The position numbers and the translations under genes are program-made. Positions 1-29,520 of a stretch of DNA of 64,000 nucleotides are shown here, piece after piece. Source of the stretch: Rhizopus arrhizus (Eukaryota; Mucoromycota; Mucoromycetes; Mucorales; Rhizopodaceae); the NCBI GenBank assembly GCA_024220505.1, contig JAKZZE010000037.1, positions 62,001 through 126,000 on the forward strand. Reading direction: 5' to 3'. The notes under the pieces are model-generated. The model was not told where the DNA came from. It saw only the letters and a program-made list of their open reading frames with translations, and ran no database searches. Numbering within the stretch: the first letter of the stretch is position 1; every line of letters begins with the position of its first letter.

Positions 1-822
1 TTTGTTCGCCCGAAGTTTGAGTATGGCCTAGCCATATCTCGGCTGACGGCAACCGACCTCAAATCTATAGAAAATCTGCAAGATCGCTGTCTTCGTCTCT
101 TGGTTGGTGGTCATCGTACCTCTTCTACAACAATCATCAAGCATATTACCACGCTGCCATCTATGCGTCATCGTGTAGATGTGCTTACAACTCGCTACTG
201 TCTTCGTGCTCGCTCTCTCCCTGCTTCTTGCTTGCTGTCTCTGCTGTCAACAACGCTACCTGTCTCTCGTATCAAGGTTCATCTTGAAAAGAATCCGCTC
301 TTCTTGGCTCTGCCTTCTCCTCTTCCGTCCTCCGATGCTCGGCTCAAGACCTTCTTTCGCCAGTATCGTGAGCGTCAAGTCACGTCTATTGTCACCTCCA
401 CTACCCAGGTTCTCCTACGCGCATGTCGCCCTGCTCTGGTGGTTGATCCCGTTCTTTACGTTCCTGCAACCCGTGCAGAACGCTCTCTCTTGGTTCGTTG
501 GCGTCTTGGCTGGCTGCCAGGTAAGCCTGAAGACTGTCCTTGTGGCCGTGATCGTCGTTCCCGTCGCCACTTTCTTGAGTGCGATTTGATCCCGTCTTTC
601 CTTTGGTCTGACCTTCCTCGCTGTCCTCCTGGGTCTTATCCCATTGACTTTGCTCTTTCCTCGTTGCCTCTTGGTCGCTCAGCTCGCTGTCCTCCTTGGT
701 GGTCTTCTCTTCTGTTAATGCTCTGGCACATCCAACGCCTCTGCCGTCCTGATAGCTTCTATGCTATTGACTCTTCTCCTGGTGCCTTATGGTATTCTAG
801 CTCTTCTCGTAACTCTGACTGA
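1..822 (+). pseudogene. LINE ORF2 C-terminal part, copy A (5' end outside window)
   Basis: Open from base 1 in frame 1 to TGA at 820-822 (273 codons). It corresponds to the region after the reverse transcriptase domain of the full-length ORF2 and contains the C-terminal Cys/His knuckle CPCGRDRRSRRHFLEC. The reading frame is uninterrupted, so the copy may be complete outside the window; this cannot be judged here. Confidence 0.85.
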
Positions 823-1103
823 AACCCTTCTTTGTCTGTCTCCTGCTGATCCCCCACGGAAGTAAAGCCATCAAAGTTCCTTACCGTTGGGCTGTGACAG
901 TAGGTCAGCTAAGTTGTGGAAGTAGGCAGTCAATCTGATCTTTTGCTTTATCATTTTTTTGGAGTTTTTCTGTTTCTCAGGCTCCTTTTTTTGTACCTTA
1001 TTCTTTTTTCATTGTACTTGAAGATGCAATAATGACTTTTTAGTCGCCTGCAAATATCTTCCTATTAAATAAAAACAAAATCTTTAACCTGAGCTAAGCG
1101 ACC
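1..1103 (+). mobile_element. LINE copy A, 3' portion (cut by window edge)
   Basis: 3' part of an APE-type LINE: end of ORF2 (1-822), then a 281-bp 3' UTR finishing in the family terminus GAGCTAAGCGACC with no poly(A). It abuts LINE copy B directly. Its ORF2 is slightly diverged from the full-length copies (for example RLTATDLKSIENLQ where they have KFT..Q.KEI.RLQ). Confidence 0.9.
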
Positions 1104-2403
1104 GCTCTATGGTACTTCTCTCCCCTTGGTCGACAAGTTCGTATACCTTGGTATGCCTTTCGTCAAGACTGGTCTCTCTGCTGCTTCGGTGCTTTCTCTT
1201 CGTTCTCCTGGTGTGCTTCAACTAATGGGTATTCTCAACAAGATTGGCGTGAATCGTCAAGGCTTTTCTCTGCTCCTGTGTGCTCGCATCTATGCCACAT
1301 TTGTCCGTCCAAAGTTCGAATATGGTCTTGCTATCTCAAAGTTTACTGCAACTCAAGTCAAAGAAATAGAACGTCTTCAAGACCGATGCCTTCGTATGAT
1401 GGTTGGTGGTCATGCTACCTCCTCTACGCTGGTCATCAAGCACATGACAACATTGCCATCTATGCACCACCGCATAGATGTGCTTACAACTCGTTTCTGC
1501 CTTCGTGCCCGCTCTCTTCCTGGTTCTTGCCTGCTGTCTCTCCTGTCGTCAACGCTGCCTGTCTCTCGAATCAAGATCCATCTTGACAAGAATCCGCTCT
1601 TCTTGGCTTTGCCTTCTCCTCCTCCGTCCTCCGATGCTCGGCTCAAGACCTTCTTTCGCCAGTATCGTGAGCGTCAAGTCATCACTCTCGTCACCTCCAC
1701 TACCCAGGTTCTCTTACGCGCATGTCGCCCTGCTCTGGTGGTTGATCCCGTCCTATACGTTCCTGCAACCCGTGCAGAACGCTCTCTCTTGGTTCGTTGG
1801 CGTCTTGGTTGGTTGCCAGGCAAGCCTGAAGACTGTCCTTGTGGCCGTGATCGTCGCTCTCGCCGTCACTTTTTCGAGTGCGATCTTATCCCGTCTTTCC
1901 TTTGGTCTGACCTTCCTCGCTGTCCTCCTGGGACTTATCCCATTGACTTTGCTCTTTCCTCGTTGCCTCTTGGTCGCTCAGCTCGCTGTCCTCCTTGGTG
2001 GTCATCTCTCTTGTTGATGCTCTGGCATATACAACGTCTGTGCCGTCCTGATAGCTTCTATGCTATTGACTCTTCTCCTGGTGCCTTATGGTATTCACGA
2101 TCATCTCGTAACTCTGACTGAAAACCTTCTTTGTCTGTCTCCTACTGATCCCCCACGGAAGTAAAGCCATCAAAGTTCCTTGCCGTTGGGTTGTGACAGT
2201 AGGTCAGCTAAGTTGTGGAAGTAGGCAGTCAATCTCATCTTTTGCTTTGTCTTTTTTTTGGAGTTTTTCTGTTTCTCAGGCTCCTTTTTTTGTATCTTAT
2301 TCTCTTTTTTTTGTACTTGAAGATGCAATAATGACTTTTTAGTCGCCTGCAAAATATCTTCCTATTAAATAAAAACAAAATCTTTAACCTGAGCTAAGCG
2401 ACC
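1104..2403 (+). mobile_element. LINE copy B, 5'-truncated
   Basis: Begins abruptly inside ORF2 right after the terminus of copy A and runs to the full 3' end at 2403. 5' truncation with an intact 3' end is the signature of incomplete target-primed reverse transcription. Confidence 0.9.
1105..2121 (+). pseudogene. LINE ORF2 fragment, copy B
   Basis: Uninterrupted frame with no start codon of its own, equivalent to roughly the last 338 residues of the 1127-residue ORF2 of copy C. It includes the Cys/His knuckle with FEC in place of LEC. Endonuclease and reverse transcriptase are missing, so it cannot encode an active protein. Confidence 0.85.
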
Positions 2404-2926
2404 GAGGTATGTGGAGATAGTGCAAATGGTTAGAGCGTCTGTCTATCATTCGGGAGGTTGCAAGTTCAACCCCTCGTATCCGCATATCTACCCTTCCCGC
2501 ACTCTAACTGCATGTTCTCTTTCTGCGGTGCTTCAAGCGCTGAATGATTTTGTCTTGTGTGTCGCGTTGAGCGGCAGCTTTGTATCTGTTCGCCTTCCTT
2601 CCCTCCATTGTTGTTTGGTGTTGTGCCGCTTGATAACACCCTGGTTTTAACGCCGCAAAGTTGCTTCGGTGGTTTGAGGTGTTTGTTGATCGTTGTCTGT
2701 GCGTTGCCTGGATTCCCAGCCCCGGGATTAAAGAAGCATCGTTCTGTCTCTGCCTCAAGTCTTCGTCTATGGTTTCTGCTTCCAGATCATAATTCGCTCC
2801 TTCCCCCATTCCCCCTTAATAACTTGTATGCTTTCCAGGATGTTCCTGTGGATTGCAATAATGATTTCTTAATCGCCTGCATATAATCCAATAAAATATA
2901 AAATCTTTCACCTGAGCTAAGCGACC
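2404..2926 (+). mobile_element. tRNA-derived SINE copy 1 with LINE-type 3' tail
   Basis: A 523-bp non-coding unit between LINE B and LINE C. The 5' part has a degenerate tRNA with A and B boxes, the middle is unique to the SINE family and resembles the unit at 7781-8321, and the last ~65 bp match the LINE tail including the hairpin and GAGCTAAGCGACC. This three-part build is that of a SINE mobilised by a partner LINE. Confidence 0.85.
2418..2472 (+). promoter_or_regulatory. Internal Pol III promoter of SINE 1 (A box, B box)
   Basis: A box TAGTGCAAATGG at 2418-2429 and B box GTTCAACCC at 2464-2472 have tRNA-like spacing. The T-arm and anticodon arm do not pair well, so this is a promoter relic of a tRNA and not a tRNA gene. 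Confidence 0.7.
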
Positions 2927-3115
2927 ACCTTTCTTTCGCTCTTCCGACCGTTACACAAGGTATAGTACGCGTAATCAACTTTGAACTCGAATATCTCTGC
3001 GAATACGATACATCCATCCACCGTTTTAACACCAAAATAATCGTCGTATTTTTCTCTACAAACTATATTTTTTTCAACTCGATTGCTGTATTTTTCACCA
3101 TTTTCGACATTTCCC

Positions 3116-4120
3116 ATGTCTCAACAATCTGGCACTCCCATTTCGCTCATCTCGCAAGATGGAGTTGCAAATGTCAACATTACAAACCCTTCTGACATGC
3201 AACAAGCTTTGCAATATTTATTGCACAACTTTGAAACCCTCCAGCAACGTGTTTCAACACACGATGACTTGTTTGCTGAACTGACTGCTTTACGCAGTGA
3301 AAATGCTACTTTGAAGGCGAAAATCGCCTCACTCGAATCTCAACTTTCCGCTGGCGCTGACGTCAACAGTTCTTCCGCTTTCTCCTCTTTGGCTTCCGAC
3401 CCGGCTACCATACGTGCGCCCCAAGATGCACCACAAATGAACAATGTAACCTATAGTGCTATTGCTGCCAAGGCTGCTGCTACTACTGCTACTACCACCC
3501 GTCGCCCACCTAGCAAGAAGCGAAAGCTTGCTGCTAGTCGTCCATTCCAACCAGTTGACCCTTCTGCTCCTCGTGGTTTTGAATACATGTACCTGCATAG
3601 AAACCGCAAGCTGTCCCGTGCTGAAATTAGACGCAACCTGCGTTTACTTGGTCTTGATCTTTCCCGTGTCTTGGACATCTGCTTCCCTGGACCCAAGGTC
3701 ATTGGTCTATTGGTTCATGTTCTTTACAAAGAAGAGGTGATCTCTCTTCTATCCACAGCCAAGGTTCCGTTGGTTGATGGTTTTGATCCTCTGGATCCTG
3801 TCAACTTGGCGGATCCTGAGCTCCAGCATCTTTCGTTGGCTGACAAAGCTAATGAATGTGCTGAGCTCCAGTTCACTCGCTGCTCCCGTGCTCTCTCTCG
3901 TCTTGGTGCTGGCCGTGCTCACCTGGTGGGTCCCATAGGTAAGTACTTTTCATCCAAGGGTTGGATCGATGACGACTCTTTGAGTCAGATTCTGTCTTCC
4001 CTTCCCCCTTCCTCTTTTGCTTCTCGTGGTCGAGATCCAGGCGCTGCTTTCCGTGGTGACACGGTCATGTCAGATGCTTTGGTCTCTGATACCGCTAGTG
4101 CTGGATCACACTCATTATGA
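3116..4120 (+). CDS. LINE ORF1 protein, copy C
   Basis: 334 residues starting MSQQSG. An upstream in-frame ATG at 3083 exists, but 3116 is preferred because copy F starts only there. The N-terminal third has a Leu/Glu-rich heptad-like stretch (about residues 35-80), then a low-complexity Ala/Thr/Ser linker with a basic KKRK patch (about 140), then a conserved C-terminal block starting GFEYMYL. LINE ORF1 proteins bind element RNA and chaperone reverse transcription; no zinc knuckle or RRM is obvious to the eye. The stop overlaps the ORF2 start (ATGA, 4117-4120), suggesting coupled reinitiation. Confidence 0.88.
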   Translation: MSQQSGTPISLISQDGVANVNITNPSDMQQALQYLLHNFETLQQRVSTHDDLFAELTALRSENATLKAKIASLESQLSAGADVNSSSAFSSLASDPATIRAPQDAPQMNNVTYSAIAAKAAATTATTTRRPPSKKRKLAASRPFQPVDPSAPRGFEYMYLHRNRKLSRAEIRRNLRLLGLDLSRVLDICFPGPKVIGLLVHVLYKEEVISLLSTAKVPLVDGFDPLDPVNLADPELQHLSLADKANECAELQFTRCSRALSRLGAGRAHLVGPIGKYFSSKGWIDDDSLSQILSSLPPSSFASRGRDPGAAFRGDTVMSDALVSDTASAGSHSL

Positions 4121-7100
4121 GTGAGGTCCAACACCTTTCTATAAGCCTTTGGAACGCGAATGGTCTTCGGACCACGACCGTTCATGAGGTCTTGTCTCAT
4201 TGTCTCTCCTCTACTCTCCTTTTTATCACCGAGACTTGGCTTCTTTCCCCTTCGCTCCTTCCTACTGACTGGATGCAGTATCATGTGTATGGTGTTCCTG
4301 TACCTTCGGCCAACCGTGGTTCGATGGGTGTTACTGCTCTGGTCTCTCCTTCTTGTCCCTTTCCTGTCTCTCAACTTCCTTCACCGAATCGGTATACCCT
4401 TTCGTTGAAGGTCGGACCCTTTCGCCTTCATTGTTTGTATGTACCTCCTCCTCTTTCTAACTCTGACTTTATTAATGTACTATCCTCTATTCCTTCTCTC
4501 CCCAATACTTTCATTTGTGGCGACTTTAATGCTCGTCTTGGTGACCTCACTGGTGATGCATTGGTCTCTCCTCGTGGTGCTGCTATGGCTCGCTGGCTTG
4601 CTGATCACTCCTTGACCGTTCTGAACGGCCCACTGGCTCATGGTATTCCTACCTGGGTCGGGTTTCGTGATGATCGAGAGATGAGTAGCATCATTGACAT
4701 GTTTCTAACAAACGCGTCATTGATGTCTCCTCGCCTTGACATCGCGTCTGACTTGTCTCTTGGTTCTGACCATCGTCTACTCACGTTGTCTTTTTCATTT
4801 ACTCAGTCAAGTGCCTCTGAGTCATTGTCTGATATACCTGATACCACTCTACATCCTCGTCGATTATGGAACTTGTCTCGCCTTGGTGAACCTGATCCAT
4901 GTCAACTCTATCAAGATACCTTTCGTTCGTTTTCTGCTCCATTGCTTTCTCAACTGAAGAGGTTGGTTCAACACCCTCCTTCTTCACGTCCGCCAATTGA
5001 CGACCTCAACTCGTCGCTCAACAACATCATCTACCGTTCTCTTGACTCTTCTGTCGGTGATCGTCCTCCTCGTCCATCGCATTGGAAAAAGTACTGGACG
5101 CAACAACTTCAAGATGCTGCTGATTTCCGCAACAGGTGCTACCGTAGATGGCGTCGTGCCTTTGGCATCGACAAAGTCTATTGGTGGCATCAACATCAAC
5201 AAGCGAATACCTCTTTCCGTCAAGCTGTGGCCAATGCCAAACGTCTGTCCTGGCAAGCATTTTGCAAGTCTCTCGAATCTGACTTCACTAAAGCCGTTTC
5301 CAAAGTCAAGCAACTCAATCGACGACATCAGTCATCATCGTCGTTTTCCCATCCTGATGGTCCATCTAAGGCAGTGGAGGTAATGGCTAGTCACTTGGCT
5401 TCGGTCTTTGATGGCAGTCTTCTACCTTCTACTCGCCCATCACCACCTTCATCTCCATCCTCTCTTGGTTTGCCTCTTGGTCTTCATGGTTCGTCTCCTT
5501 CTGGTGCATCTCCCTCTGGTTCTTCTGGTCCTCCTGGTTCTTCAAATTCTCTATTCGCTCCTTTAACTATTCACATGTACATCGGTCAGCTCCCTACTCG
5601 TAAAGCTCCTGGTGCTGATCACATCAAGGCCGAGATGCTCAAGCCGATCAGTACTGACCTCTCCCACTTGCTGTCTTGGTTCTTTTCCCTATGCTGTCAA
5701 TGGTCTTACGTTCCTTCTCTCTGGCGGCATGCTCAAGTCTATCCAATCTTCAAGAAAGGTGATCCTTCGCTGCCGTCCAACTATCGACCGATCTCACTGA
5801 CCTCGGTGTTTAGAAAGCTCCTTGAGCTTAGTCTTGCTCCATGGCTCGCCTCGGTGTCGCCTCGACTTGATCTGGCTCAAGGTGGCTTTCGTCCTCGTCG
5901 CTCAGCTCTTGACCAAGCCTTATGTCTTCATGAGCTGATGCAGTCTTACTATCGTCGCTCACATCGTTTCCCTGTGGTGGCATTCCTGGATATCAAGTCA
6001 GCCTACGATACCGTCGACCGGCGTGTTATCTGGGATGCTCTCTCTCGCTCTGGTGCTGGTTCGTCTCCTTGTCTGCCTCTCTTGGTTCATCTGTTTGATG
6101 ATGTCTCGGTGTCTGTCTTGGTTTCCAACCATTCTTCTGCTTCATTCTCTCCTGTCACCGGTGTCTTGCAAGGTTCTGTTCTCAGTCCTCACTTGTACTC
6201 GGTGTACATCAACACTCTTCCTGCTCTCCTTCGTCAAGTCGCTGCTCCTGCCACACATTTGGTTCCCTCCTCTGGTTCTGCTGATGCTGGTATGGTCCCA
6301 GTCAACTCTCTCCTCTTTGCTGACGATGTCGCAGTCATTGGCTCGGCAAAGTCAGTCAAAGAGATGCTCAAGCTCTGTGAGGATCACTCACTGTCTCTTG
6401 GCTATCGCTGGAATCCTCTGAAGTGCGCGGTGCTCAACCACCCCACTTCCTCTTCATCGTCATCTGGTTCAACCCAATTAAGCCTTTATGGTACTTCACT
6501 GCCCTTGGTCGACAAGTTTGTATACCTTGGTATGCCTTTCGTCAAGACTGGTCTCTCTGCTGCTTCGGTGCTTCCTCTTCGTTCTCCTGGTGTCCTTCAA
6601 CTGATGGGAATTCTTAACAAGATTGGCGTGAATCGTCAAGGCTTTTCTCTTCTCTTGTGTGCTCGGATCTATGCTACCTTTGTCAGACCCAAGTTCGAGT
6701 ACGGCCTTGCGATCTCAAAGTTTACCACTGCTCAAGCCAAAGAAATCGACCGCTTACAAGACCGATGCCTTCGTATTATGGTCGGTGGTCATGCCACCTC
6801 CTCTACGTTGGTTATCAAACATATGACAACCTTGCCGTCTATGCACCACCGCATAGATGTGCTTACAACTCGTTTCTGCCTTCGTACTCGCTCGCTTCCT
6901 GGTTCTTGCTTGCTGTCTCTCCTGTCGTCAACGCTGCCTGTCTCTCGAATCAAGATCCATCTTGACAAGAATCCGCTCTTCTTGGCTTTGCCTTCTCCTC
7001 CTCCATCCTCCGATGCTCGGCTCAAGACCTTCTTTCGCCAGTATCGTGAGCGTCAAGTCATCTCTCTCGTCACCTCCACTACTCAGGTTCTCTTACGCGC

Positions 7101-7500
7101 ATGTCGCCCTGCTCTGGTGGTTGATCCCGTTCTTTACGTTCCTGCAACCCGTGCAGAACGCTCTCTCTTGGTTCGTTGGCGTCTTGGTTGGTTGCCAGGC
7201 AAGCCTGAAGACTGTCCTTGTGGCCGTGATCGTCGCTCTCGCCGTCACTTTCTCGAGTGCGATCTTATCCCGTCTTTCCTTTGGTCTGACCTTCCTCGCT
7301 GTCCTCCTGGGTCTTATCCCATTGACTTTGCTCTTTCCTCGTTGCCTCTTGGTCGCTCAGCTCGCTGTCCTCCTTGGTGGTCATCTCTCTTGTTGATGCT
7401 CTGGCATATACAACGTCTGTGCCGTCCTGATAGCTTCTATGCTATTGACTCTTCTCCTGGTGCCTCTTGGTATTCTAGCTCTTCTCGTAACTCTGACTGA
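4117..7500 (+). CDS. LINE ORF2: APE endonuclease-reverse transcriptase, copy C
   Basis: 1127 residues, uninterrupted. The N-terminal exonuclease-endonuclease-phosphatase domain (about 1-235) shows WNANGL, ITETW, GDFNARLGD and GSDHRL, the residues that bind metal and nick DNA. A Ser/Pro/Gly-rich linker (about 440-480) leads to a reverse transcriptase with KAPGADHIKAEM, the IFKKGD/YRPISLT block, QGGFRP, FLDIKSAYDTV, LQGSVLSP and the catalytic FADD at about 734. A Cys/His knuckle CPCGRDRRSRRHFLEC lies near 1031-1048. No RNase H domain is seen. The protein would nick target DNA and prime reverse transcription at the nick in the nucleus. Near-identity to copy D suggests recent activity. Confidence 0.93.
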   Translation: MSEVQHLSISLWNANGLRTTTVHEVLSHCLSSTLLFITETWLLSPSLLPTDWMQYHVYGVPVPSANRGSMGVTALVSPSCPFPVSQLPSPNRYTLSLKVGPFRLHCLYVPPPLSNSDFINVLSSIPSLPNTFICGDFNARLGDLTGDALVSPRGAAMARWLADHSLTVLNGPLAHGIPTWVGFRDDREMSSIIDMFLTNASLMSPRLDIASDLSLGSDHRLLTLSFSFTQSSASESLSDIPDTTLHPRRLWNLSRLGEPDPCQLYQDTFRSFSAPLLSQLKRLVQHPPSSRPPIDDLNSSLNNIIYRSLDSSVGDRPPRPSHWKKYWTQQLQDAADFRNRCYRRWRRAFGIDKVYWWHQHQQANTSFRQAVANAKRLSWQAFCKSLESDFTKAVSKVKQLNRRHQSSSSFSHPDGPSKAVEVMASHLASVFDGSLLPSTRPSPPSSPSSLGLPLGLHGSSPSGASPSGSSGPPGSSNSLFAPLTIHMYIGQLPTRKAPGADHIKAEMLKPISTDLSHLLSWFFSLCCQWSYVPSLWRHAQVYPIFKKGDPSLPSNYRPISLTSVFRKLLELSLAPWLASVSPRLDLAQGGFRPRRSALDQALCLHELMQSYYRRSHRFPVVAFLDIKSAYDTVDRRVIWDALSRSGAGSSPCLPLLVHLFDDVSVSVLVSNHSSASFSPVTGVLQGSVLSPHLYSVYINTLPALLRQVAAPATHLVPSSGSADAGMVPVNSLLFADDVAVIGSAKSVKEMLKLCEDHSLSLGYRWNPLKCAVLNHPTSSSSSSGSTQLSLYGTSLPLVDKFVYLGMPFVKTGLSAASVLPLRSPGVLQLMGILNKIGVNRQGFSLLLCARIYATFVRPKFEYGLAISKFTTAQAKEIDRLQDRCLRIMVGGHATSSTLVIKHMTTLPSMHHRIDVLTTRFCLRTRSLPGSCLLSLLSSTLPVSRIKIHLDKNPLFLALPSPPPSSDARLKTFFRQYRERQVISLVTSTTQVLLRACRPALVVDPVLYVPATRAERSLLVRWRLGWLPGKPEDCPCGRDRRSRRHFLECDLIPSFLWSDLPRCPPGSYPIDFALSSLPLGRSARCPPWWSSLLLMLWHIQRLCRPDSFYAIDSSPGASWYSSSSRNSD

Positions 7501-7708
7501 AACCCTTCTTTGTCTGTCTCCTGCTGATCCCCCACGGAAGTAAAGCCATCAAAGTTCCTTACCGTTGGGTTGTGACAGTAGGTCAGCTAAGTTGTGGAAG
7601 TAGGCAGTCAATCTGATCTTTTACTTTATCTTTTTTTGGAGTTTTTCTGTTTCTCAGGCTCCTTTTTTTGTACTTATTCTTATTCTTTGTACTTGAAGAT
7701 GCAATAAT

Positions 7709-7720
7709 GACTTTTTAGTC
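7709..7720 (+). other. 3' tail hairpin of LINE C (also in SINEs and other copies)
   Basis: GACT-TTTT-AGTC, flanked by an outer GCA/TGC pair (7701-7703, 7724-7726). SINE 1 has GATT/AATC (2863-2874) and SINE 2 GACA/TGTC (8259-8270) at the same place, so pairing is kept while sequence changes. Probably the element bound by the ORF2 reverse transcriptase. Confidence 0.75.
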
Positions 7721-7780
7721 GCCTGCAATATATCTTCGTTATTTAATAAAAACAAAATCTTTAACCTGAGCTAAGCGACC

Positions 7781-8321
7781 GGGGATGTGGATGTAGCTCA
7801 GTCGGTAGAGCGTCTGACTATTATTGGTGTGGTCGCAAGTTCGACCCCTGATAGGATCTTCGGATCTATCCCTTCCCTGCCCCTCTACGTGTTCTCTTTG
7901 CCGAGTGCATCAAGCACTTTTGTTTCTCCGCCTGTGTGTTGCGTTGCGTAGCAGCTGAGTATCTGCCTACTTTCCTTCCCTTTCGGGGGACTTTGGTGTG
8001 CGCTCTTGACGATATTACTGGTTTTAACGCCACTGCTGTTCTGGTCGGTTGGTCTGCGTTGTTTGTTTGTCGAGCGTTGTTGGTCCGCGGTGCCGGGATG
8101 CCCAGCCCGGGCTTAATGAAGCGCGTTCTGTTCTGCCTCAAGTCTTCGTCTTTGGTTCCAGCTCCCCCCAATAATAATTCGTTCCTTCTTTCTTCCTTTC
8201 CCTCCTCCCCCATAATAGTTTGTATGCTTTCCAGTTTATCACTGTGGATAGCAATAATGACATATTTGTCGCCTGCAATTATCCAATAAAATATAAAATC
8301 TTTAACCTGAGCTAAGCGACC
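7781..8321 (+). mobile_element. tRNA-derived SINE copy 2 with LINE-type 3' tail
   Basis: 541 bp between LINE C and LINE D. The head resembles tRNA-Lys (TAGCTCAGTCGGTAGAGC, then GTCTGACT, then GGTCGCAAGTTCGACC). The body is similar to SINE 1 but with many differences, so the two are separate family members. The tail ends in the LINE terminus. Confidence 0.87.
7794..7847 (+). promoter_or_regulatory. Internal Pol III promoter of SINE 2 (A box, B box)
   Basis: A box TAGCTCAGTCGG (7794-7805) is a perfect tRNA-type box; B box GTTCGACCC (7839-7847) is also canonical. The anticodon stem does not fold, so this is not annotated as a tRNA. Confidence 0.75.
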
Positions 8322-8510
8322 ACCTTTCTTTCGCTCTTCCGACCGTTACACAAGGTATAGTACGCGTAATCAACTTTGAACCCAAATATCTCTGCGACTA
8401 CGATACATCCATCCACCGTTTTAACACCAAAATAATCGTCGTATTTTTCTCTACAAGTTATATTTTTTTCAACTCGATTGCTCTATTTTTCATCATTTTC
8501 GACATTTCCC

Positions 8511-9521
8511 ATGTCTCAACAATCTGGCTCCCCCATTTCGCTCATCTCGCAAGATGGAGTTGCAAATGTCAACATTACAAACCCTTCTGACATGCAACAA
8601 GCTTTGCAATATTTATTGCACAACTTCCAAACCCTCCAGCAACGTGTTTCAACCCACGATGACTTGTTTGCTGAACTGACTGCTTTACGCAGTGAAAATG
8701 CTACTTTGAAGGCGAAAATCGCCTCACTCGAATCTCAACTCTCCGCTGGCGCTGACGTCAGCAGTTCTTCCGCTTTTTCCTCTTTGGCTTCCGACCCGGC
8801 TACCATACGTGCGCCCCAAGATGCACCCCAAATGAACAAAGTAACCTATAGTGCTATTGCTGCCAAGGCTGCTGCTACTGCTACTGCTACTATCCCCTCT
8901 CGTCGCCCACCTAGCAAGAAGCGTAAGCTTGCTGCTAGTCGTACATTTATGCCAGTTGACCCTTCTGCTCCTCGTGGATTCGAGTACTTGTACTTGAATC
9001 GCAACCGCAAGCTGTCCCGTTCTGAAGTTCGCAGAAACCTCCGTTTGCTTGGTCTTGATCTTTCCCGTGTCTTGGACATCTGCTTCCCTGGCCCCAAGGT
9101 CATTGGTCTCTTGGTCCACGTTCAATACAAAGAAGAGGTGATCTCTCTTCTATCCACAGCCAAGGTTCCGTTGGTTGACGGTTTTGATCCATTGGATCCT
9201 GTCAACTTGGCGGATCCTGAGCTCCAGCATCTTTCATTGGCTGACAAGGCTAATGAATGTGCTGAGCTCCACTTCACTCGCTGCTCCCGTGCTCTCTCTC
9301 GTCTTGGTGCTGGCCGTGCTCACCTGGTGGGTCCCATAGGTAAGTACTTTTGTTCCAAGGGTTGGATCGATGAGGACTCTTTGAGTCAGATTCTATTCTC
9401 CCTCCCTTCTCCCCTTTCTGCTTCTCGTGGTCGTGATCCAGGCGCTGCTTTCCGTGGTGACACGGTCATGTCAGATGCTTTGGTCTCTGATACCGCTAGT
9501 GCTGGATCACACTCATTATGA
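8511..9521 (+). CDS. LINE ORF1 protein, copy D
   Basis: 336 residues, starting MSQQSGSPIS. Two residues longer than copy C in the Ala/Thr linker, otherwise the same architecture: heptad-like N-terminal segment, basic KKRK patch, conserved GFEYLYL block. An in-frame ATG at 8478 is ignored for the same reason as in copy C. It overlaps ORF2 by ATGA (9518-9521). A role as nucleic-acid chaperone of the element ribonucleoprotein is inferred from the position of the gene. Confidence 0.88.
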   Translation: MSQQSGSPISLISQDGVANVNITNPSDMQQALQYLLHNFQTLQQRVSTHDDLFAELTALRSENATLKAKIASLESQLSAGADVSSSSAFSSLASDPATIRAPQDAPQMNKVTYSAIAAKAAATATATIPSRRPPSKKRKLAASRTFMPVDPSAPRGFEYLYLNRNRKLSRSEVRRNLRLLGLDLSRVLDICFPGPKVIGLLVHVQYKEEVISLLSTAKVPLVDGFDPLDPVNLADPELQHLSLADKANECAELHFTRCSRALSRLGAGRAHLVGPIGKYFCSKGWIDEDSLSQILFSLPSPLSASRGRDPGAAFRGDTVMSDALVSDTASAGSHSL

Positions 9522-12500
9522 GTGAGGTCCAACACCTTTCTATAAGCCTTTGGAACGCGAATGGTCTTCGGACCACGACCGTTCATGAGGTCTTGTCTCA
9601 TTGTCTCTCCTCTACTCTCCTTTTTATTACCGAGACTTGGCTTCTTTCCCCTTCTCTTCTTCCCACTGACTGGATGCAGTATCATGTGTATGGTGTTCCT
9701 GTACCTTCGGCCAACCGTGGTTCGATGGGTGTTACTGCCCTGGTCTCTCCTTCTTGTCCCTTTCCTGTCTCTCAACTTCCTTCAGCGAATCGGTATACCC
9801 TTTCGTTGAAGGTCGGACCGTTTCGCATTCATTGTTTGTATGTTCCTCCTCCTCTTTCCAACTCTGATTTCATTAATGTACTTTCCTCCATTTCTTCTCT
9901 TCCCAATTCTTTTATCTGTGGCGACTTTAATGCTCGTCTTGGTGACCTCACTGGTGATGCATTGGTCTCTCCTCGTGGTGCTGCTATGGCTCGCTGGCTT
10001 GCTGATCGTTCCTTGACCGTTCTGAACGGCCCACTGGCTCATGGTATTCCTACCTGGGTCGGGTTTCGTGATGATCGAGAGATGAGTAGCATCATTGACA
10101 TGTTTTTAACAAACGCGTCATTGATGTCTCCTCGCCTTGACATCGCGTCTGACTTGTCTCTTGGTTCTGATCATCGTCTCCTTACGCTGTCATTCTCATT
10201 TGCTCAGTCAAGTGCCTCTGAGTCTTCATCTGAAACATCTGATGCTACTATTCATCCTCGTCGATTATGGAACTTGTCTCGCCTTGGTGAACCTGATCCA
10301 TGTCAATTCTATCAAGATACCTTTTGTACGTCCTCTGCTCCATTGCTTTCTCAACTGAAGAGGTTGGTTCAACACCCTCCTTCTTCACGTCCGCCAATTG
10401 ACGACCTCAACGCGTCGCTCAACAACATCATCTACAGCTCTCTTGACTCTTCTGTCGGTGACCGACCTCCACGTCCATCGCATTGGAAAAAGTACTGGAC
10501 GCAACAACTTCAAGATACTGCTGATTTCCGCAACAGATGTTACCGTAGATGGCGTCGTGCCTTTGGTATTGACAAAGTCTACTGGTGGCATCAACATCAA
10601 CAAGCCAACGTCTCCTTTCGTCAAGCTGTGGCCAATGCCAAACGTCTCTCTTGGCAAGCATTCTGTAAGTCTTTAGAAACTGACTTTACCAAAGCGATAT
10701 CAAAAGTCAAGCAACTCAAACGACGACATCAGTCATCATCGTCATTTTCTCATCCTGATGGTCCATCTAAGGCAGTGGAGGTAATGGCTAGTCACTTGGC
10801 TTCGGTCTTTGATGGCAGTCTTCTACCTTCCACTCGTCCACCTTCTCCTCCATCTTCATCCTCTCTTGGTTTGCCTCTTGGTCTACATGGTTCGTCTCCT
10901 TCTGGTACGTCTCCCTCTGGTTCCTCTGGTTCCTCTGGTCCTCCTGGTTCAAGTCACTCATTATTCGCTCCTTTAACAATCCATATGTATATCGGTCAGC
11001 TCCCTACTCGTAAAGCTCCTGGTGCTGATCACATCAAGGCCGAGATGCTCAAGCCGATCAGTACTGACCTCTCCCACTTGCTGTCTTGGTTCTTTTCCTT
11101 GTGCTGTCAATGGTCTTACGTTCCTTCTCTCTGGCGGCATGCTCAAGTCTATCCGATCTTCAAGAAAGGTGATCCTTCGCTGCCGTCCAACTATCGACCT
11201 ATCTCACTGACCTCGGTGTTTAGAAAGCTCCTTGAGCTTAGTCTTGCTCCATGGCTCGCCTCGGTGTCGGCTCGACTTGATCTGGCTCAAGGTGGCTTTC
11301 GTCCTCGTCGCTCAGCTCTTGACCAAGCCCTATGTCTTCATGAGCTGATGCAGTCCTATTATCGTCGTTCACATCGTTTTCCTGTGGTTGCATTCCTGGA
11401 TATCAAGTCGGCCTACGATACCGTCGACCGGCGTGTTATCTGGGATGCTCTCTCTCGTTCTGGTGCTGGTTCGTCTCCTTGTCTGCCTCTCTTGGTCCAT
11501 CTCTTTGATGATGTCTCGGTGTCTGTCCTGGTGTCAAACCATTCTTCTGCTGCTTTCTCTCCTGTCACCGGTGTCTTGCAAGGTTCTGTTCTCAGTCCTC
11601 ACTTGTACTCGGTGTACATCAATACTCTTCCTGCTTTACTTCGTCAAGTCGCTGCTCCTGCCACCCATTTGGTTCCCTCCTCTGGTCGCTCCGATGCTGG
11701 TATGGTCCCAGTCAACTCTCTCCTCTTTGCTGACGATGTCGCAGTCATTGGCTCGGCAAAGTCAGTCAAAGAGATGCTCAAGCTCTGTGAGGATCACTCG
11801 TTGTCTCTTGGATATCGCTGGAATCCTCTGAAGTGTGCGGTGCTCAACCACCCCACTTCCTCTTCATCGTCATCTGGTTCAACCCAACTTACACTCTATG
11901 GTACTTCTCTGCCTTTGGTCGAAAAGTTTGTATACCTTGGTATGCCTTTCGTCAAGACTGGTCTCTCTGCTGCTTCGGTGCTTCCTCTTCGTTCTCCTGG
12001 TGTTCTAAAGCTCATGTCGATCCTCAATTTTATAGGTGTCAATCGTCAAGGCTTTTCTCTTCTGTTGTGTGCTCGCATTTATGCTACTTTTGTCCGTCCC
12101 AAGTTCGAATATGGTCTCGCTATCTCAAAGTTTACTGCAATTCAAGCCAAAGAAATAGAACGTCTTCAAGATCGCTGCCTTCGTATGATGGTAGGTGGTC
12201 ATGCCACCTCCTCTACATTGGTCATCAAGCATATGACAACCTTGCCGTCTATGCACCACCGCATAGATGTACTTACAACTCGTTTCTGCCTTCGTGCCCG
12301 TTCTCTCCCTGGCTCTTGTCTGCTGTCTCTTCTATCGTCGACATTGCCAGTGTCTCGAGTCAAGATTCATCTTGAAAAGAATCCGCTCTTCTTGGCTTTG
12401 CCTTCTCCTCTTCCGTCCTCCGATGCTCGGCTCAAGACCTTCTTTCGCCAGTATCGTGAGCGTCAAGTCATCACTCTCGTCACCTCCACTACCCAGGTTC

Positions 12501-12910
12501 TCTTACGCGCATGTCGCCCTGCTCTGGTGGTTGATCCCATCTTATACGTTCCTGCAACCCGTGCAGAACGCTCTCTCTTGGTTCGTTGGCGTCTTGGTTG
12601 GTTACCAGGTAAGCCTGAAGACTGTCCTTGTGGACGTGATCGTCGTTCCCGTCGCCACTTTCTTGAGTGCGATTTGATACCGTCTTTCCTCTGGTCTGAT
12701 CTGCCTCGCTGTCCTCCTGGGTCTTATCCCATTGACTTTGCTCTTTCCTCGTTGCCTCTTGGCCGTTCAGCTAGCTGTCCTCCTTGGTGGTCTTCCCTGC
12801 TTCTTATGCTTTGGCATATACAACGTCTCTGCCGTCCTGATAGCTTCTATGCTATTGACTCTTCCCCTGGTGCCTTATGGTATTCTAGCTCTTCTCGTAG
12901 CCCTGACTGA
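9518..12910 (+). CDS. LINE ORF2: APE endonuclease-reverse transcriptase, copy D
   Basis: 1130 residues with all motifs seen in copy C: endonuclease WNANGL, GDFNARLGD and GSDHRL; reverse transcriptase FLDIKSAYDTV and FADD; C-terminal CPCGRDRRSRRHFLEC. The Ser/Gly/Pro linker between endonuclease and reverse transcriptase is 3 residues longer than in C. There are no stops or frameshifts, so this copy could supply activity in trans to the SINEs and truncated copies. Confidence 0.93.
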   Translation: MSEVQHLSISLWNANGLRTTTVHEVLSHCLSSTLLFITETWLLSPSLLPTDWMQYHVYGVPVPSANRGSMGVTALVSPSCPFPVSQLPSANRYTLSLKVGPFRIHCLYVPPPLSNSDFINVLSSISSLPNSFICGDFNARLGDLTGDALVSPRGAAMARWLADRSLTVLNGPLAHGIPTWVGFRDDREMSSIIDMFLTNASLMSPRLDIASDLSLGSDHRLLTLSFSFAQSSASESSSETSDATIHPRRLWNLSRLGEPDPCQFYQDTFCTSSAPLLSQLKRLVQHPPSSRPPIDDLNASLNNIIYSSLDSSVGDRPPRPSHWKKYWTQQLQDTADFRNRCYRRWRRAFGIDKVYWWHQHQQANVSFRQAVANAKRLSWQAFCKSLETDFTKAISKVKQLKRRHQSSSSFSHPDGPSKAVEVMASHLASVFDGSLLPSTRPPSPPSSSSLGLPLGLHGSSPSGTSPSGSSGSSGPPGSSHSLFAPLTIHMYIGQLPTRKAPGADHIKAEMLKPISTDLSHLLSWFFSLCCQWSYVPSLWRHAQVYPIFKKGDPSLPSNYRPISLTSVFRKLLELSLAPWLASVSARLDLAQGGFRPRRSALDQALCLHELMQSYYRRSHRFPVVAFLDIKSAYDTVDRRVIWDALSRSGAGSSPCLPLLVHLFDDVSVSVLVSNHSSAAFSPVTGVLQGSVLSPHLYSVYINTLPALLRQVAAPATHLVPSSGRSDAGMVPVNSLLFADDVAVIGSAKSVKEMLKLCEDHSLSLGYRWNPLKCAVLNHPTSSSSSSGSTQLTLYGTSLPLVEKFVYLGMPFVKTGLSAASVLPLRSPGVLKLMSILNFIGVNRQGFSLLLCARIYATFVRPKFEYGLAISKFTAIQAKEIERLQDRCLRMMVGGHATSSTLVIKHMTTLPSMHHRIDVLTTRFCLRARSLPGSCLLSLLSSTLPVSRVKIHLEKNPLFLALPSPLPSSDARLKTFFRQYRERQVITLVTSTTQVLLRACRPALVVDPILYVPATRAERSLLVRWRLGWLPGKPEDCPCGRDRRSRRHFLECDLIPSFLWSDLPRCPPGSYPIDFALSSLPLGRSASCPPWWSSLLLMLWHIQRLCRPDSFYAIDSSPGALWYSSSSRSPD

Positions 12911-13193
12911 AACCCTTCTTTGTCTGTCTCCTGCTGATCCCCCACGGAAGTAAAGCCATCAAAGTTCCTTACCGTTGGGTTGTGACAGTAGGTCAGCTAA
13001 GTTGTGGAAGTAGGCAGTCAATCTGATCTTTTGCTTTGTCTTTTTTTTGGAGTTTTTCTGTTTCTCAGGCTCCTTTTTTTGTACCTTATTCTTTTTTCTT
13101 TGTACTTGAAGATGCAACAATGACTTTTTAGTCGCCTGCAATATATCTTCGTTATTTAATAAAAACAAAATCTTTAACCTGAGCTAAGCGACC

Positions 13194-14206
13194 CCTTCGT
13201 ATGATGGTTGGTGGTCATGCCACCTCCTCTACGTTGGTTATCAAACATATGACAACCTTGCCGTCTATGCACCACCGCATAGATGTGCTTACCACTCGTT
13301 TCTGCCTTCGTGCTCGCTCTCTACCTGGTTCTTGCCTGCTGTCTCTCCTGTCGTCAACGCTGCCTGTCTCTCGAATCAAGATCCATCTTGACAAGAATCC
13401 GCTCTTCTTGGCTTTGCCTTCTCCTCCTCCGTCCTCCGATGCTCGGCTCAAGACCTTCTTTCGCCAGTATCGTGAGCGTCAAGTCATCACTCTCGTCACC
13501 TCCACTACCCAGGTTCTCTTACGCGCATGTCGCCCTGCTCTGGTGGTTGATCCAGTCCTATACGTTCCTGCAACCCGTGCAGAACGCTCTCTCTTGGTTC
13601 GTTGGCGTCTTGGCTGGCTGCCAGGTAAGCCTGAAGACTGTCCTTGTGGCCGTGATCGTCGCTCTCGCCGTCACTTTCTCGAGTGTGATTTGATCCCGTC
13701 CTTCCTTTGGTCTGACCTTCCTCGCTGTCCTCCTGGGTCTTATCCCATTGACTTTGCTCTTTCCTCGTTGCCTCTTGGTCGCTCAGCTCGCTGTCCTCCT
13801 TGGTGGTCATCTCTCTTGTTGATGCTCTGGCATATACAACGTCTGTGCCGTCCTGATAGCTTCTATGCTATTGACTCTTCTCCTGGTGCCTCTTGGTATT
13901 CTAGCTCTTCTCGTAACTCTGACTGAAACCCTTCTTTGTCTGTCTCCTGCTGATCCCCCACGGAAGTAAAGCCATCAAAGTTCCTTGCCGTTGGGTTGTG
14001 ACAGTAGGTCAGCTAAGTTGTGGAAGTAGGCAGTCAATCTCATCTTTTTTCTGTATCTTTTTTTTGGAGTTTTTCTGTTTCTCAGGCTCCTTTTTTTGTA
14101 CTTATTCTTTTATCATTGTACTTGAAGATGCAACAATGACTTTTTAGTCGCCTTCAAATATCTTCCTATTAAATAAAACAAAATCTTTAACCTGAGCTAA
14201 GCGACC
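13194..14206 (+). mobile_element. LINE copy E, 5'-truncated
   Basis: About 1 kb 3' fragment starting at CCTTCGTATGATGG inside ORF2 and carrying the full tail to 14206. It abuts the 5' end of full-length copy F. Confidence 0.9.
13195..13926 (+). pseudogene. LINE ORF2 fragment, copy E
   Basis: Open frame equal to roughly the last 243 residues of ORF2, including the Cys/His knuckle. Catalytic domains are absent because of the 5' truncation. Confidence 0.85.
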
Positions 14207-15296: not shown

Positions 15297-15339
15297 TTTT
15301 TTTTAACGAATTCTGAACTCTTGTTTAAAATTGCAAAAT

Positions 15340-18300
15340 ATGACTGACAACAATCAATCCACTCAAGTTTCTTCCCTTAATGAAAAAGGTAACATTGATA
15401 AACAAGAAGAGACGTCAAGAGTCAGCGAAGACATAGAAATGGCTATTGTTGAAGAAGCTGCTTTTACTACTTCAAATCATTTTGAAATAAAAGAAGATTC
15501 CCCTACTGATGCTGTTATGGGTCTAAGAGTTACATTGACAGACCTTAGACAACAGATCGCTCGTGCTGTGGTGACTGGAGCTCCTCAAGAAGAGCTAACC
15601 AAGCTACAAGAGCAAGCAGTGAATATAAAGAACTGCATCCAGTTTTTAGATGATGCTCAAGCTTTCTGTGTTACTCCCCCCACACCGGCAAGTAATGCTG
15701 CTTTCAGTTCTGGCCTCTCAAATACTGCTTTTAACCCTCGATCGGCTCACATTATCCCACCCGATCTTCCTGTCTGGCAATGGAGTGGTAATATCTGGAG
15801 AAAAGATGCCGATGTACACGACTCTGTAGAAGACTTACTTGACACCTTCTCTTTAATCATTGAATCAAATGGTCTGTCTGTTGATTCTAGATGGTCTCGC
15901 CTGGTCCCAATCAAGATGAACCGAGATCAACGGTCATGGTTTAACGAGGTTCTAAAAGGGCGTAATTTGACTTGGTCTGAAGTGAGAAAAATCATTGTCA
16001 AGACCTATGCCGCTCAAGACGTAGCTCAAGAATTAGAGTACATGGACCAGCTCTTATCACTGAAAATGCTTTCAACCGAGTCGATTGAAGCCTTTACTGA
16101 TCGATTTCAACGTATTCGAAGGGCTGCTAAATGGGATGATGACATCAGGACTGCTTCCATTTATAAACGTGCTTTACCAGGCTTTTTACGTCAGGAGGTC
16201 TCTCGTTCCTTGTTAAACCTTGGTCGAGATCAACAAGACTCTGTGGCAAAAGTTGCTGCCAAAGCACGAATGGTTCTGTCATCAAACCTTTGTTCAGAAA
16301 GCGGCTCATCTAATCGTCAAGATTCTGGATTAAAAACTTCATCCTCGCCTCTCCTTTCAAAAGGAACAGAAGCATCGAAGTACAATCCAAACAACTTGGA
16401 AACATCAAATAACCAACTTGCAAATGTTAAAAGAGTCTCTATGGGTAGTATGAAGAACAAGTTCCGCTGTGCCATCCATGGTATTGCCAATCATCCCACT
16501 GAAAGGTGCAATAAATACAAGGACTTGCTGAAGCAAAACTCTTCCTCGGTTACCTCTCTTCCTGCTACATCTAATCGACCTTTCTCATTTGTCTCTGCTG
16601 CCAAAAACTGTTATCGTTGCTCTGGTAATGTACCATGGTCGAGGGAACATGCTGCTCACTGTCCTCGGGACAAGCCCTACCAAGGTCCAACTAAGGCCAT
16701 CCGTTCTGTTCGCTTGGATACCTCAAGATCCAATGGTAGCAAGCCTAACCTCACCATCACTCCTCAAGCTAGACCACAACAGGCATCTTCCAAGGTGTCT
16801 AGTGGTGATAGCAACTTGATGGACGTAGATGACGATGGTTATCCAGTGAACTATGATTGTAAGAAATTAACAAAACAGAATGAAGTATTTAAAAGTACTA
16901 ACCATTCTTTAATTGTACCTATCACTATAGAAAATGTGAACACTATGGCCCTAGTTGATAGTGGTTCGTCTTTTAGCTCGATAGACACAAAATTTGTTAA
17001 TAAATATAATATTGCAGTTGATAGAAATGTATCTGGTTCCGTTATACTTGCTACAAGTGATAATGTTAGTAAACGTTTCGGTACAACCAAATTTCCATTA
17101 AGTGTTATTTACGGTGATAATGATAAAAATCTTATTCATACATCCCATTCTTTTGAAGTCCTTCCTCTTTCCTTGGATACTGAAGTTGTAATAGGATTAG
17201 ATCTGATGCACAAGTTAAACATTCTTGTTACCAACTTAGCTATCAGACATCCTAATCTTGCACCAGTTATTGACAAAGGGATTACGGATGATACACCTGA
17301 ACCTAACAAAGCTCCTTTCGGTACACCTGAGCAACAAGCTCATTTCCATAATGCTGTTAAACCATTTGTTGATCAAAATGCCTTAATACCAAAGAATTCA
17401 TTCTGTACTGTACCAGAGTCAGTTATACGTTTAGAAACTGTTAAAGGAAAAACTGCTTACCGTGCACCATATCGTACTCCTTTTAAATTACTACCAATCA
17501 TGCGTGAATGTATTGACACTTGGTTAAAGGATGAAGTTATTGAACGTGCATCACCTAATTCAGATTGGAATTCTCCTTTAACATTGGCACCTAAGAAAGA
17601 CTTGCTTGGTAATCTCACAGGACATCGACCCTGTCTTGATCCTCGCTTGCTAAATTCTATTCTTGTGTCAAATGATAGACATCCTATTCCAAAGATTGAA
17701 GAGATTTTCGATCGATTACAAGGATCAACTATTTTTACCACTCTTGATCTTCGACAAGCATTTCATCGATTCCAAATCTATGAGCCTGATCGTATTAAGA
17801 CCACATTCACTTTTGAAGGTCAACAATACCAATTTAGAGGTTGTCCATTTGGTTTGAAACATATTGCTTCCCGTTATCAACGAGTGATTAATATAGTGTT
17901 ACGTGATTTACCTTATGCACAGGCTTTTGTTGATGATATCATCATATTTTCCAAGTCTTATGAGGAACACATCACACATGTGCAAAACATAATTCAGAGA
18001 TTAACTAAAGTGAATTTGATCCTTAACCCAGACAAGTGTCATTTTGCGCAGTCTACTGTTTACTTGCTTGGTTTCTGTGTTGATGCCAAAGGGTCTCGAC
18101 TCGATCCTCGTAAAGTTACAAACGCTTTGACTTGGCCTAGACCTGCATCTGGAAAAGAGATTCAACGCTTTTTAGGACTGGTAAATTATTTTAGAAAATA
18201 CTTGCCAAATATTTCTGAAGTCACTGCACCTTTGGACAAATTACGTTTTGAAGGTAAACTTGATAAACTTTGGACATCTGAACAAGAAAGAGCTTTTGAA

Positions 18301-29241: not shown

Positions 29242-29520
29242 AACCCTTCTTTGTCTGTCTCCTGCTGATCCCCCACGGAAGTAAAGCCATCAAAGTTCCT
29301 TACCGTTGGGTTGTGACAGTAGGTCAGCTAAGTTGTGGAAGTAGGCAGTCAATCTCATCTTTTTTCTCTCTTTTTTTTTGGAGTTTTTCTGTTTCTCAGG
29401 CTCCTTTTTTTGTATCTTATTCTCTTTTTTTGTACTTGAAGATGCAATAATGACTTTTTAGTCGCCTGCAAATATCTTCCTATTAAATAAAACAAAATCT
29501 TTAACCTGAGCTAAGCGACC
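28595..29520 (+). mobile_element. LINE copy G, 3' portion
   Basis: ORF2 3' end and full 3' UTR, ending in GAGCTAAGCGACC at 29520. It starts at the TA flanking Tc1-c. Possibly the remainder of copy F. Confidence 0.87.

Follow-up and report, generated by a model that had tools for sequence, protein, structure and literature searches.

Introduction

In stringent-type pairs of long interspersed nuclear elements (LINEs) and short interspersed nuclear elements (SINEs), both partners have a 3' tail in common that carries a stem-loop and is not just poly(A). The available part of one account gives the eel and fish elements UnaL2 and ZfL2-1/ZfL2-2 as examples, for which experiments showed recognition of the tail by the protein of the second open reading frame (ORF2) (PMC4176376). 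Here we describe a comparable system in the fungus Rhizopus arrhizus, found in a tandem LINE/SINE array on a stretch of 64,000 nucleotides (contig JAKZZE010000037.1, positions 62,001 to 126,000 of the forward strand; hereafter the window). Unlike the UnaL2 and ZfL2 pairs, the Rhizopus elements live in a different host, have a tail of three helices whose letters are free to vary and target tRNA genes, and recognition by ORF2 is something that we infer.

The general idea of a tail stem-loop common to LINEs and SINEs is already known. The L1-clade LINEs of plants and the SINEs of monocots are also alike in having a common tail hairpin, with variable stems, compensatory mutations, and conserved loop and flanking letters (Ohshima, PMC3747384). 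They differ from the present elements in their plant hosts, and the accessible part of that paper mentions no tRNA target; the constant letters in Rhizopus are UGA...UCG of a helix here called P3, and the hairpin lies inside a larger structure. Tail stem-loops are also mentioned for the fungal element Tad1 in an excerpt of a further source (PMC5135761).

Other elements resemble the Rhizopus LINEs in their targets. As described in the portions at hand of two reports (PMC5006619, PMC5911963), TRE5, TRE3, NLTR-A and NLTR-B of social amoebae encode an endonuclease and a reverse transcriptase (RT) and are tied to tRNA genes, but their insertions lie outside the gene, on its upstream or downstream side, and come no nearer than 2-6 bp. 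TRE5 has contacts between its ORF1 protein and TFIIIB and an oligo(A) tail, whereas the Rhizopus LINEs cut inside the gene at A14 and reuse the bare 14-mer. Sequence-specific insertion in tRNA genes is likewise given, in the section available, for the NeSL-related elements NeSL-1_TV (tRNA-Pro), LIN15_SM (tRNA-Arg) and LIN25_SM (tRNA-Glu); the NeSL clade has a restriction-like endonuclease, unlike the Exo_endo_phos domain found here (PMC4640811). Grem-LINE1 of Mucor is similar in that many L1-like LINEs of Mucoromycotina gather at one kind of place, which is pericentric, and the main text of that paper, so far as it was at hand, is without tRNA (PMC7377519). The genome paper of Rhizopus oryzae gives LINEs as 3.78% of the assembly, with LINE targets unmentioned in the part available (PMC2699053). 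In the open-licence literature we found no report of a tRNA-targeting LINE system of this kind in fungi or Mucorales. What looks new is the clade in fungi, the complete tail structure with its many covarying families, and a target at the A box that renews itself.

Results

The predicted hairpins are the tip of a larger tail structure

The original prediction, made from the letters of the window, placed covarying hairpins in the tails of one LINE and two SINEs. All three were present: GACT-TTTT-AGTC at 7709-7720 in the LINE (LINE-A), GATT-TCTT-AATC at 2863-2874 in SINE 1 and GACA-TATT-TGTC at 8259-8270 in SINE 2. Two stem positions indeed differed on both sides in the order LINE, SINE 1, SINE 2 (position 3 C-G, T-A, C-G; position 4 T-A, T-A, A-T), and the outer GCA/TGC pair and the ATAAT bulge were the same in all three tails. 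The pattern around the stem, allowing up to three mismatches, occurred eight times in the window against 0.03 expected by chance.

These hairpins are the tip of a larger tail structure, P1-P2-asymmetric internal loop-P3-tetraloop. Beyond the predicted hairpin there is an outer helix of 6 bp, P1, which reads GAAGAT/ATCTTC in the LINE, TGGATT/AATCCA in SINE 1 and TGGATA/TATCCA in SINE 2. The pair that forms the base of P3 is also conserved, as U-G. Family tails folded singly consisted of P1 (6 bp), P2 (3 bp), an internal loop, P3 (4-5 bp) and a loop of 4 nucleotides (nt). P2 was stacked on P1 with a bulge of 2-5 nt on the 3' side, and the internal loop had a long 5' side and a short 3' side. In the window the three tails lie as follows.

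7695..7737, + strand: LINE-A tail structure (covariance model 61.3 bits, minimum free energy fold, pair counts)
P1 7695-7700/7732-7737, P2 7701-7703/7724-7726, P3 7708-7712/7717-7721, loop 7713-7716, + strand: helices of the LINE-A tail
2849..2890, + strand: SINE 1 tail structure, P1 TGGATT/AATCCA (covariance model 64.5 bits; fold)
8245..8285, + strand: SINE 2 tail structure, P1 TGGATA/TATCCA, P3 TGACA/TGTCG (covariance model 59.7 bits; fold)

Tails were collected without reference to the hairpin

The genome searched comprised 50.3 Mb in 41 contigs (C1-C41), with the window on C31. To avoid selection on the hairpin, tails were anchored on the element 3' end, the end of ORF2 or the SINE body. 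The 16-mer CCTGAGCTAAGCGACC had 103 genome sites at no more than 2 mismatches, 100 of which were read. The ORF2 end of a second family gave 465 candidate places, and the 150 of these that were scored led to LINE-A, LINE-B, LINE-C, LINE-D and decayed kin; stretches were taken from 40 of the 150, and 39 were counted, the 51-base stretch L130 being left out. SINE 4 and further SINE ends contributed 20 more. A family match was found for 143 of the 159 candidate stretches: 68 LINE-A, 20 LINE-C, 16 SINE 4, 12 SINE 1, 11 SINE 2, 10 LINE-D and 6 LINE-B. The structure was common to all seven, that is, to four LINE families (A-D) and three SINE families (SINE 1, 2 and 4). As in stringent-type pairs, LINEs and SINEs shared the 3' tail and its stem-loop was conserved by structure; the SINEs, as read, had neither the head nor the coding part of the LINEs.

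The 16 stretches that matched no family were rejected as hairpin-less counter-examples. Nine were tRNA-Ile genes themselves, and two (C17:2751 and C34:474940) were other repeat sites. Two more (C3:1682446 and C12:25963) look like tails interrupted by an insertion; L127, in which the hairpin is kept, is probably the far side of the first, whereas that of the second was not seen. L117, L118 and L122 were an interrupted LINE, a decayed LINE and a tail-less stretch, respectively. A putative family 'SINE3' was also discarded, as it has an ORF2 end of its own and represents the second LINE, LINE-B, in truncated form. A repeat with the ends CACTGCAAATAATTGG and CCAATTATTTGCAGTG interrupts LINE tails in L126, L127 and C3:1682446. 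The bodies of SINE 4 and SINE 2 (L099, L093) have central stretches in common, while their tRNA-like heads and tail helices are different.

Paired changes between families

In reference tails of the seven families, parsed by hand after the folds were seen, 96 of 97 cells were paired. Changes on both sides occurred between families in 11 of 14 pairs (P1 6/6, P2 3/3 and the two inner pairs of P3). Some families differ from one another at all six positions of P1, and still 41 of the 42 P1 cells were paired in cis; P1 strands taken from different families paired in 132 of 252. When the 3' strands of P1 were permuted among families, the true order alone among 5040 reached the observed pairing, and for all helices together the true order was again the only one of 5040 to pair as well as 96/97. 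P3 by itself gave a moderate result (8/5040 as good). Under a null of unconstrained evolution from a paired ancestor, 0 of 20000 simulations reached the P1 value, on a tree derived from the P1 differences themselves.

A covariance model built from LINE-A and SINE 1 alone was run on 18 stretches; it found SINE 2 strongly and also picked out LINE-B, LINE-C and one LINE-D variant, these with weak scores (see below), which speaks for recognition of a common structure. Whole-tail MAFFT alignments misplaced P1. In the model-fitted alignment, which was fitted to the structure, 96.7% of 209 cells were paired, with two-sided changes in 9 of 14 pairs; its covariation score was 0.644 and fell to 0.03-0.10 when partners were slid by 1-3 columns. 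The claim that an RNA structure is under selection is thus well supported between families. The paired changes across seven families, with the same fold from different letters, are good evidence that the shape itself has been kept by selection.

A held-out family has the same topology

An eighth family was found through its target and not through the hairpin, with a pattern of AATAAA plus the tRNA-Lys, tRNA-Met or tRNA-Phe 14-mers (see below). Fifteen places matched, and 11 of them carried CTTTAACA, which defines a new family, LINE-E. The ORF2 proteins of LINE-E and LINE-A were 43% identical in 482 aligned positions. The LINE-E tail was without any of the UGA...UCG letters of P3, and its best fold had the same topology as the other families. 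On C2, LINE-E begins at tRNA-Lys(TTT), and a LINE-E tail 5.3 kb on ends in a copy of nt 1-14 of that tRNA (the stretch between was read in part). With LINE-E included, single-sequence folds had one topology in 8 of 8 family tails, against 1 of 8000 dinucleotide shuffles; the topology pattern for this comparison was written after the folds were seen.

Variation within families and points on the other side

The prediction was to fail if more copies showed unpaired substitutions in the stem as often as paired ones. Copies inside one family were nearly identical. Among 140 copies (3 of the 143 were left out as cut short), stem changes were rare, with 5 pairs broken and 4 changed yet paired; this low-powered count does not favour the prediction. 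In one of the preserving changes both bases were altered, the SINE 2 copy L144 having G-C in place of A-U. The 194 stem positions carried 10 distinct substitutions, and the 103 unpaired positions carried 12 (Fisher P = 0.06). Single copies need not stay functional, so the within-family counts do not undo the result between families.

Several observations nevertheless weigh against a selected tail structure that ORF2 reads. To the 5 breaking changes within families come 4 further pairs affected by gaps in the same copies. The LINE-A/SINE 1 model found LINE-B, LINE-C and one LINE-D variant only weakly (E 0.007 to 0.9), and it missed two of the three LINE-D tails given (L103, L104) as well as LINE-F, a decayed LINE (L118) whose tail also lacked the full structure when folded. 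P2 is the weakest helix: 86.7% of its cells in the model-fitted alignment were paired, with 5 unpaired at one position, and by itself it gave 120 of 5040 permutations as good. Folding energies were modestly better than those of shuffles (z -0.49 to -2.25). The hand-set parse, which underlies the family counts and the pair tests, the post hoc topology pattern and the P1-derived tree belong on this side too. As LINE-E keeps the topology but hardly any of the letters, its tail may be convergent or recognised differently. Other tail functions, such as 3'-end formation or RNA stability, are conceivable.

The structure as a probable mark on the RNA template

The base of P3 was a U-G pair in all seven families, and further wobbles that pair only on the sense strand were present in LINE-D, LINE-E and the L144 copy. 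In complementary DNA (cDNA) these would be A-C mismatches, and the selected molecule is therefore most likely the sense-strand RNA. Most probably, the LINE ORF2 protein recognises this structure when it selects the RNA to be copied by target-primed reverse transcription. Such binding would fit the sharing of the tail by LINEs and SINEs and the published cases.

A real structure might instead help the LINE and SINE RNAs to form their 3' ends, to leave the nucleus or to remain stable; in keeping with this, all eight family tails have an AATAAA-like signal immediately 3' of P1. We regard it as unlikely, because the structure is also on SINEs with tRNA-like heads, presumably made by polymerase III, whose common need with the LINEs is mainly ORF2, and because in UnaL2 and ZfL2 the tail hairpin has a role in recognition by ORF2, according to the part of that study at hand (PMC4176376). 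A hairpin acting as single-stranded DNA, in the cDNA or the nicked target, for instance in second-strand priming or template jumping, is more improbable still: the fold is possible in DNA too, and template jumping could also give exact head-to-tail array junctions, but the wobbles would be mismatched in first-strand cDNA and neighbours in an array need not end in the same target copy (Ala and Ile 14-mers on C41). That shared ancestry of few tails plus chance explains the paired changes, as the total of only eight family tails with near-identical copies and the 5-to-4 count within families might suggest, is scarcely credible given that P1 stays paired while differing throughout, that, if the alignment is right, the permutation and simulation nulls fall short and that LINE-E folds alike from different letters.

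The target is the first 14 nucleotides of tRNA genes

Before the first element of an array, wherever this was read, stood an antisense tRNA gene ending at its first base. The genes at array starts were tRNA-Ile(AAT), tRNA-Ala(AGC), tRNA-Pro(AGG) and tRNA-Gly(TCC), with a few extra bases at some joints between tRNA and element (e.g. Pro, Gly). The target duplication was 14 bp and corresponded to tRNA nt 1-14, which places the cut inside the gene and not outside it as for TRE elements. The motif N7-TRGYNNA, which corresponds to tRNA nt 1-14 and includes the beginning of the A box, described 136 of the 139 duplications. The Ile 14-mer had served to find 86 of the 139; of the 53 not found via the target, 50 fit. 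Sixteen distinct 14-mers fit the pattern, and for five of them (Ile, Ala, Phe, Pro, Gly) ARAGORN called a matching tRNA in one of the stretches taken. By family, LINE-A uses the Ile and Ala 14-mers and LINE-C at least seven.

The whole of CCTGAGCTAAGCGACC cannot be element sequence. Its last 14 bases are the target duplication, since they vary with the target and since a variant stands in an empty site. This variant belongs to an off-target LINE-A piece in a tRNA-less repeat (C34:473505-474940, L047), where left and right 14-mers both read ...GAGACC; on C17:2751-2766 (L043) this repeat stands empty and has that very 14-mer, so that the 14 bases derive from the target. The C before the 14-mer is an element base, because the junction still reads C where tRNA nt 15 is A (Gly, Ala). 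As to possible targeting through polymerase III factors, the use of bare 14-bp copies in arrays and of the off-target repeat argues for recognition of sequence.

There were 11 matches to tRNA-Ile, of which 9 were full-length and identical, one (on C18) was without nt 1-7 and one was 85% alike. Of the 9 full-length genes, 6 abut LINE-A or LINE-B, 1 abuts eight bases matching the SINE 1 head and 2 (C25) are free. At C18:837327-837393 (L170) the tRNA-Ile without nt 1-7 lies at a LINE-A joint, a gene damaged by insertion. An odd joint on C41 (L041:4428-4450) reads Ala 14-mer, then CGACCGACC, then the 5' end of LINE-A, and the next copy ends in the Ile 14-mer.

Elements of the window and their arrangement

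The array of the window consists of LINE-LINE-SINE-LINE runs with exact joints at 1104, 2404, 2927, 7781, 8322, 13194 and 14207. Its features are as follows.

2927..7766, + strand: full-length LINE-A copy, flanked by 14-bp target copies on both sides
3083-4120, + strand: LINE-A ORF1, open frame with mechanical start
4117-7500, + strand: LINE-A ORF2, open frame with endonuclease and reverse transcriptase
7738..7766, + strand: 3' terminal part of LINE-A, with AATAAA and the terminus ...ATCTTTAACC, not poly(A)
7767..7780, + strand: 14-bp target-site copy TGAGCTAAGCGACC, reverse complement of tRNA-Ile(AAT) nt 1-14
2404..2912, + strand: SINE 1, tRNA-like head and LINE-A-type tail
2913..2926, + strand: 14-bp target-site copy after SINE 1
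7781..8307, + strand: SINE 2, tRNA-like head GGGGATGTGGATGTAGCTCAG and LINE-A-type tail
8308..8321, + strand: 14-bp target-site copy after SINE 2
8322..13179, + strand: second LINE-A copy, tail structure 13108-13150, target copy 13180-13193
1..1089, + strand: 3' part of a LINE-A copy, tail structure 1020-1061, target copy 1090-1103
1104..2389, + strand: 5'-truncated LINE-A, tail structure 2319-2361, target copy 2390-2403
13194..14192, + strand: 5'-truncated LINE-A, tail structure 14124-14165 with one broken P2 pair (TGC to TTC), target copy 14193-14206
29438..29520, + strand: LINE-A tail structure (29438-29479) and last target copy (29507-29520)

LINE-A ORF2 carries an Exo_endo_phos endonuclease and an RVT_1 domain, as do endonuclease-type (apurinic/apyrimidinic endonuclease, APE) non-LTR (long terminal repeat) retrotransposons. 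It matched 9 solved chains, including L1 ORF2p, R2 and a reverse transcriptase-like protein. In similarity searches its RT region was 95-96% identical to proteins named for Rhizopus delemar and Rhizopus stolonifer, as fits a Rhizopus-like host; Mucor-named proteins among the best 120 matches were 48-61% identical in this region.

A Ty3-type LTR element (RT, RNase H, integrase, chromodomain) lies at 15331-20170 of the window, downstream of a broken LINE-A. LTR elements of Rhizopus oryzae often co-localise with tRNA genes, according to the available part of the genome paper (PMC2699053). Pairs of arrays in opposite orientation occur on one contig, at 1635-1700 kb (+) and 1791-1808 kb (-) of C3 and at 47-134 kb (-) and 212-281 kb (+) of C24.

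Discussion

The computation establishes the tail structure, its covariation in seven families, its topology in an eighth, the junctions with their insertion geometry, and the targets. From these a mechanism can be proposed. The ORF2 protein would bind the tail structure of a LINE or SINE RNA, and its endonuclease would nick a tRNA gene, or a 14-bp copy of one, on the tRNA-sense strand after A14. Reverse transcription would begin at this nick, about 30 nt downstream of the tail structure, with the RNA end (...AACC, ...CGTC, ...CGAC or ...AACA) copied from the nick primer. The other strand would be cut 14 bp away, just before tRNA nt 1, which would give the 14-bp duplication. An insertion of this kind would keep the tRNA gene intact at one end and create a new 14-bp target at the other, where later LINEs and SINEs could insert to give head-to-tail arrays. 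Because the duplication recreates the target, elements pile up head to tail, as in the window. ORF2 binding, the order of nicks and the assignment of proteins to the SINEs that they move are the conjectural parts of this scheme.

On the last point, a complete SINE 2 copy with a LINE-A-type tail stands between two tRNA-Pro 14-mers (L093/L142, the latter being C32:32100-32350). The tRNA-Pro 14-mer is the target of 8 of 19 LINE-C tails and of no LINE-A tail read, but most LINE-A tails were found via the Ile 14-mer, and the nine that were not all stood at the Ala 14-mer. This suggests that the LINE-C ORF2 may accept a foreign helix sequence, a possible case of cross-mobilisation.

A wider reading, which we offer tentatively, is that this Rhizopus LINE clade reads RNA shape and not letters, P1 and the inner part of P3 being free to drift, so that an ORF2 protein may also move SINEs of other families. 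Its endonuclease would read the 14-bp tRNA 5' end through the A box, spare the gene and recreate the target, and tRNA loci may thus be self-extending docks for a community of LINEs and SINEs. A single genome thus offers a natural series of eight tails with one fold and different letters, alongside their LINEs and tRNA targets. With this series one can test directly what a LINE protein reads, RNA shape or sequence, and which LINE moves which SINE. The self-rebuilding 14-bp A-box target explains the tandem LINE/SINE arrays, and it points to a compact, sequence-specific system of target-primed reverse transcription that leaves its tRNA host gene whole.

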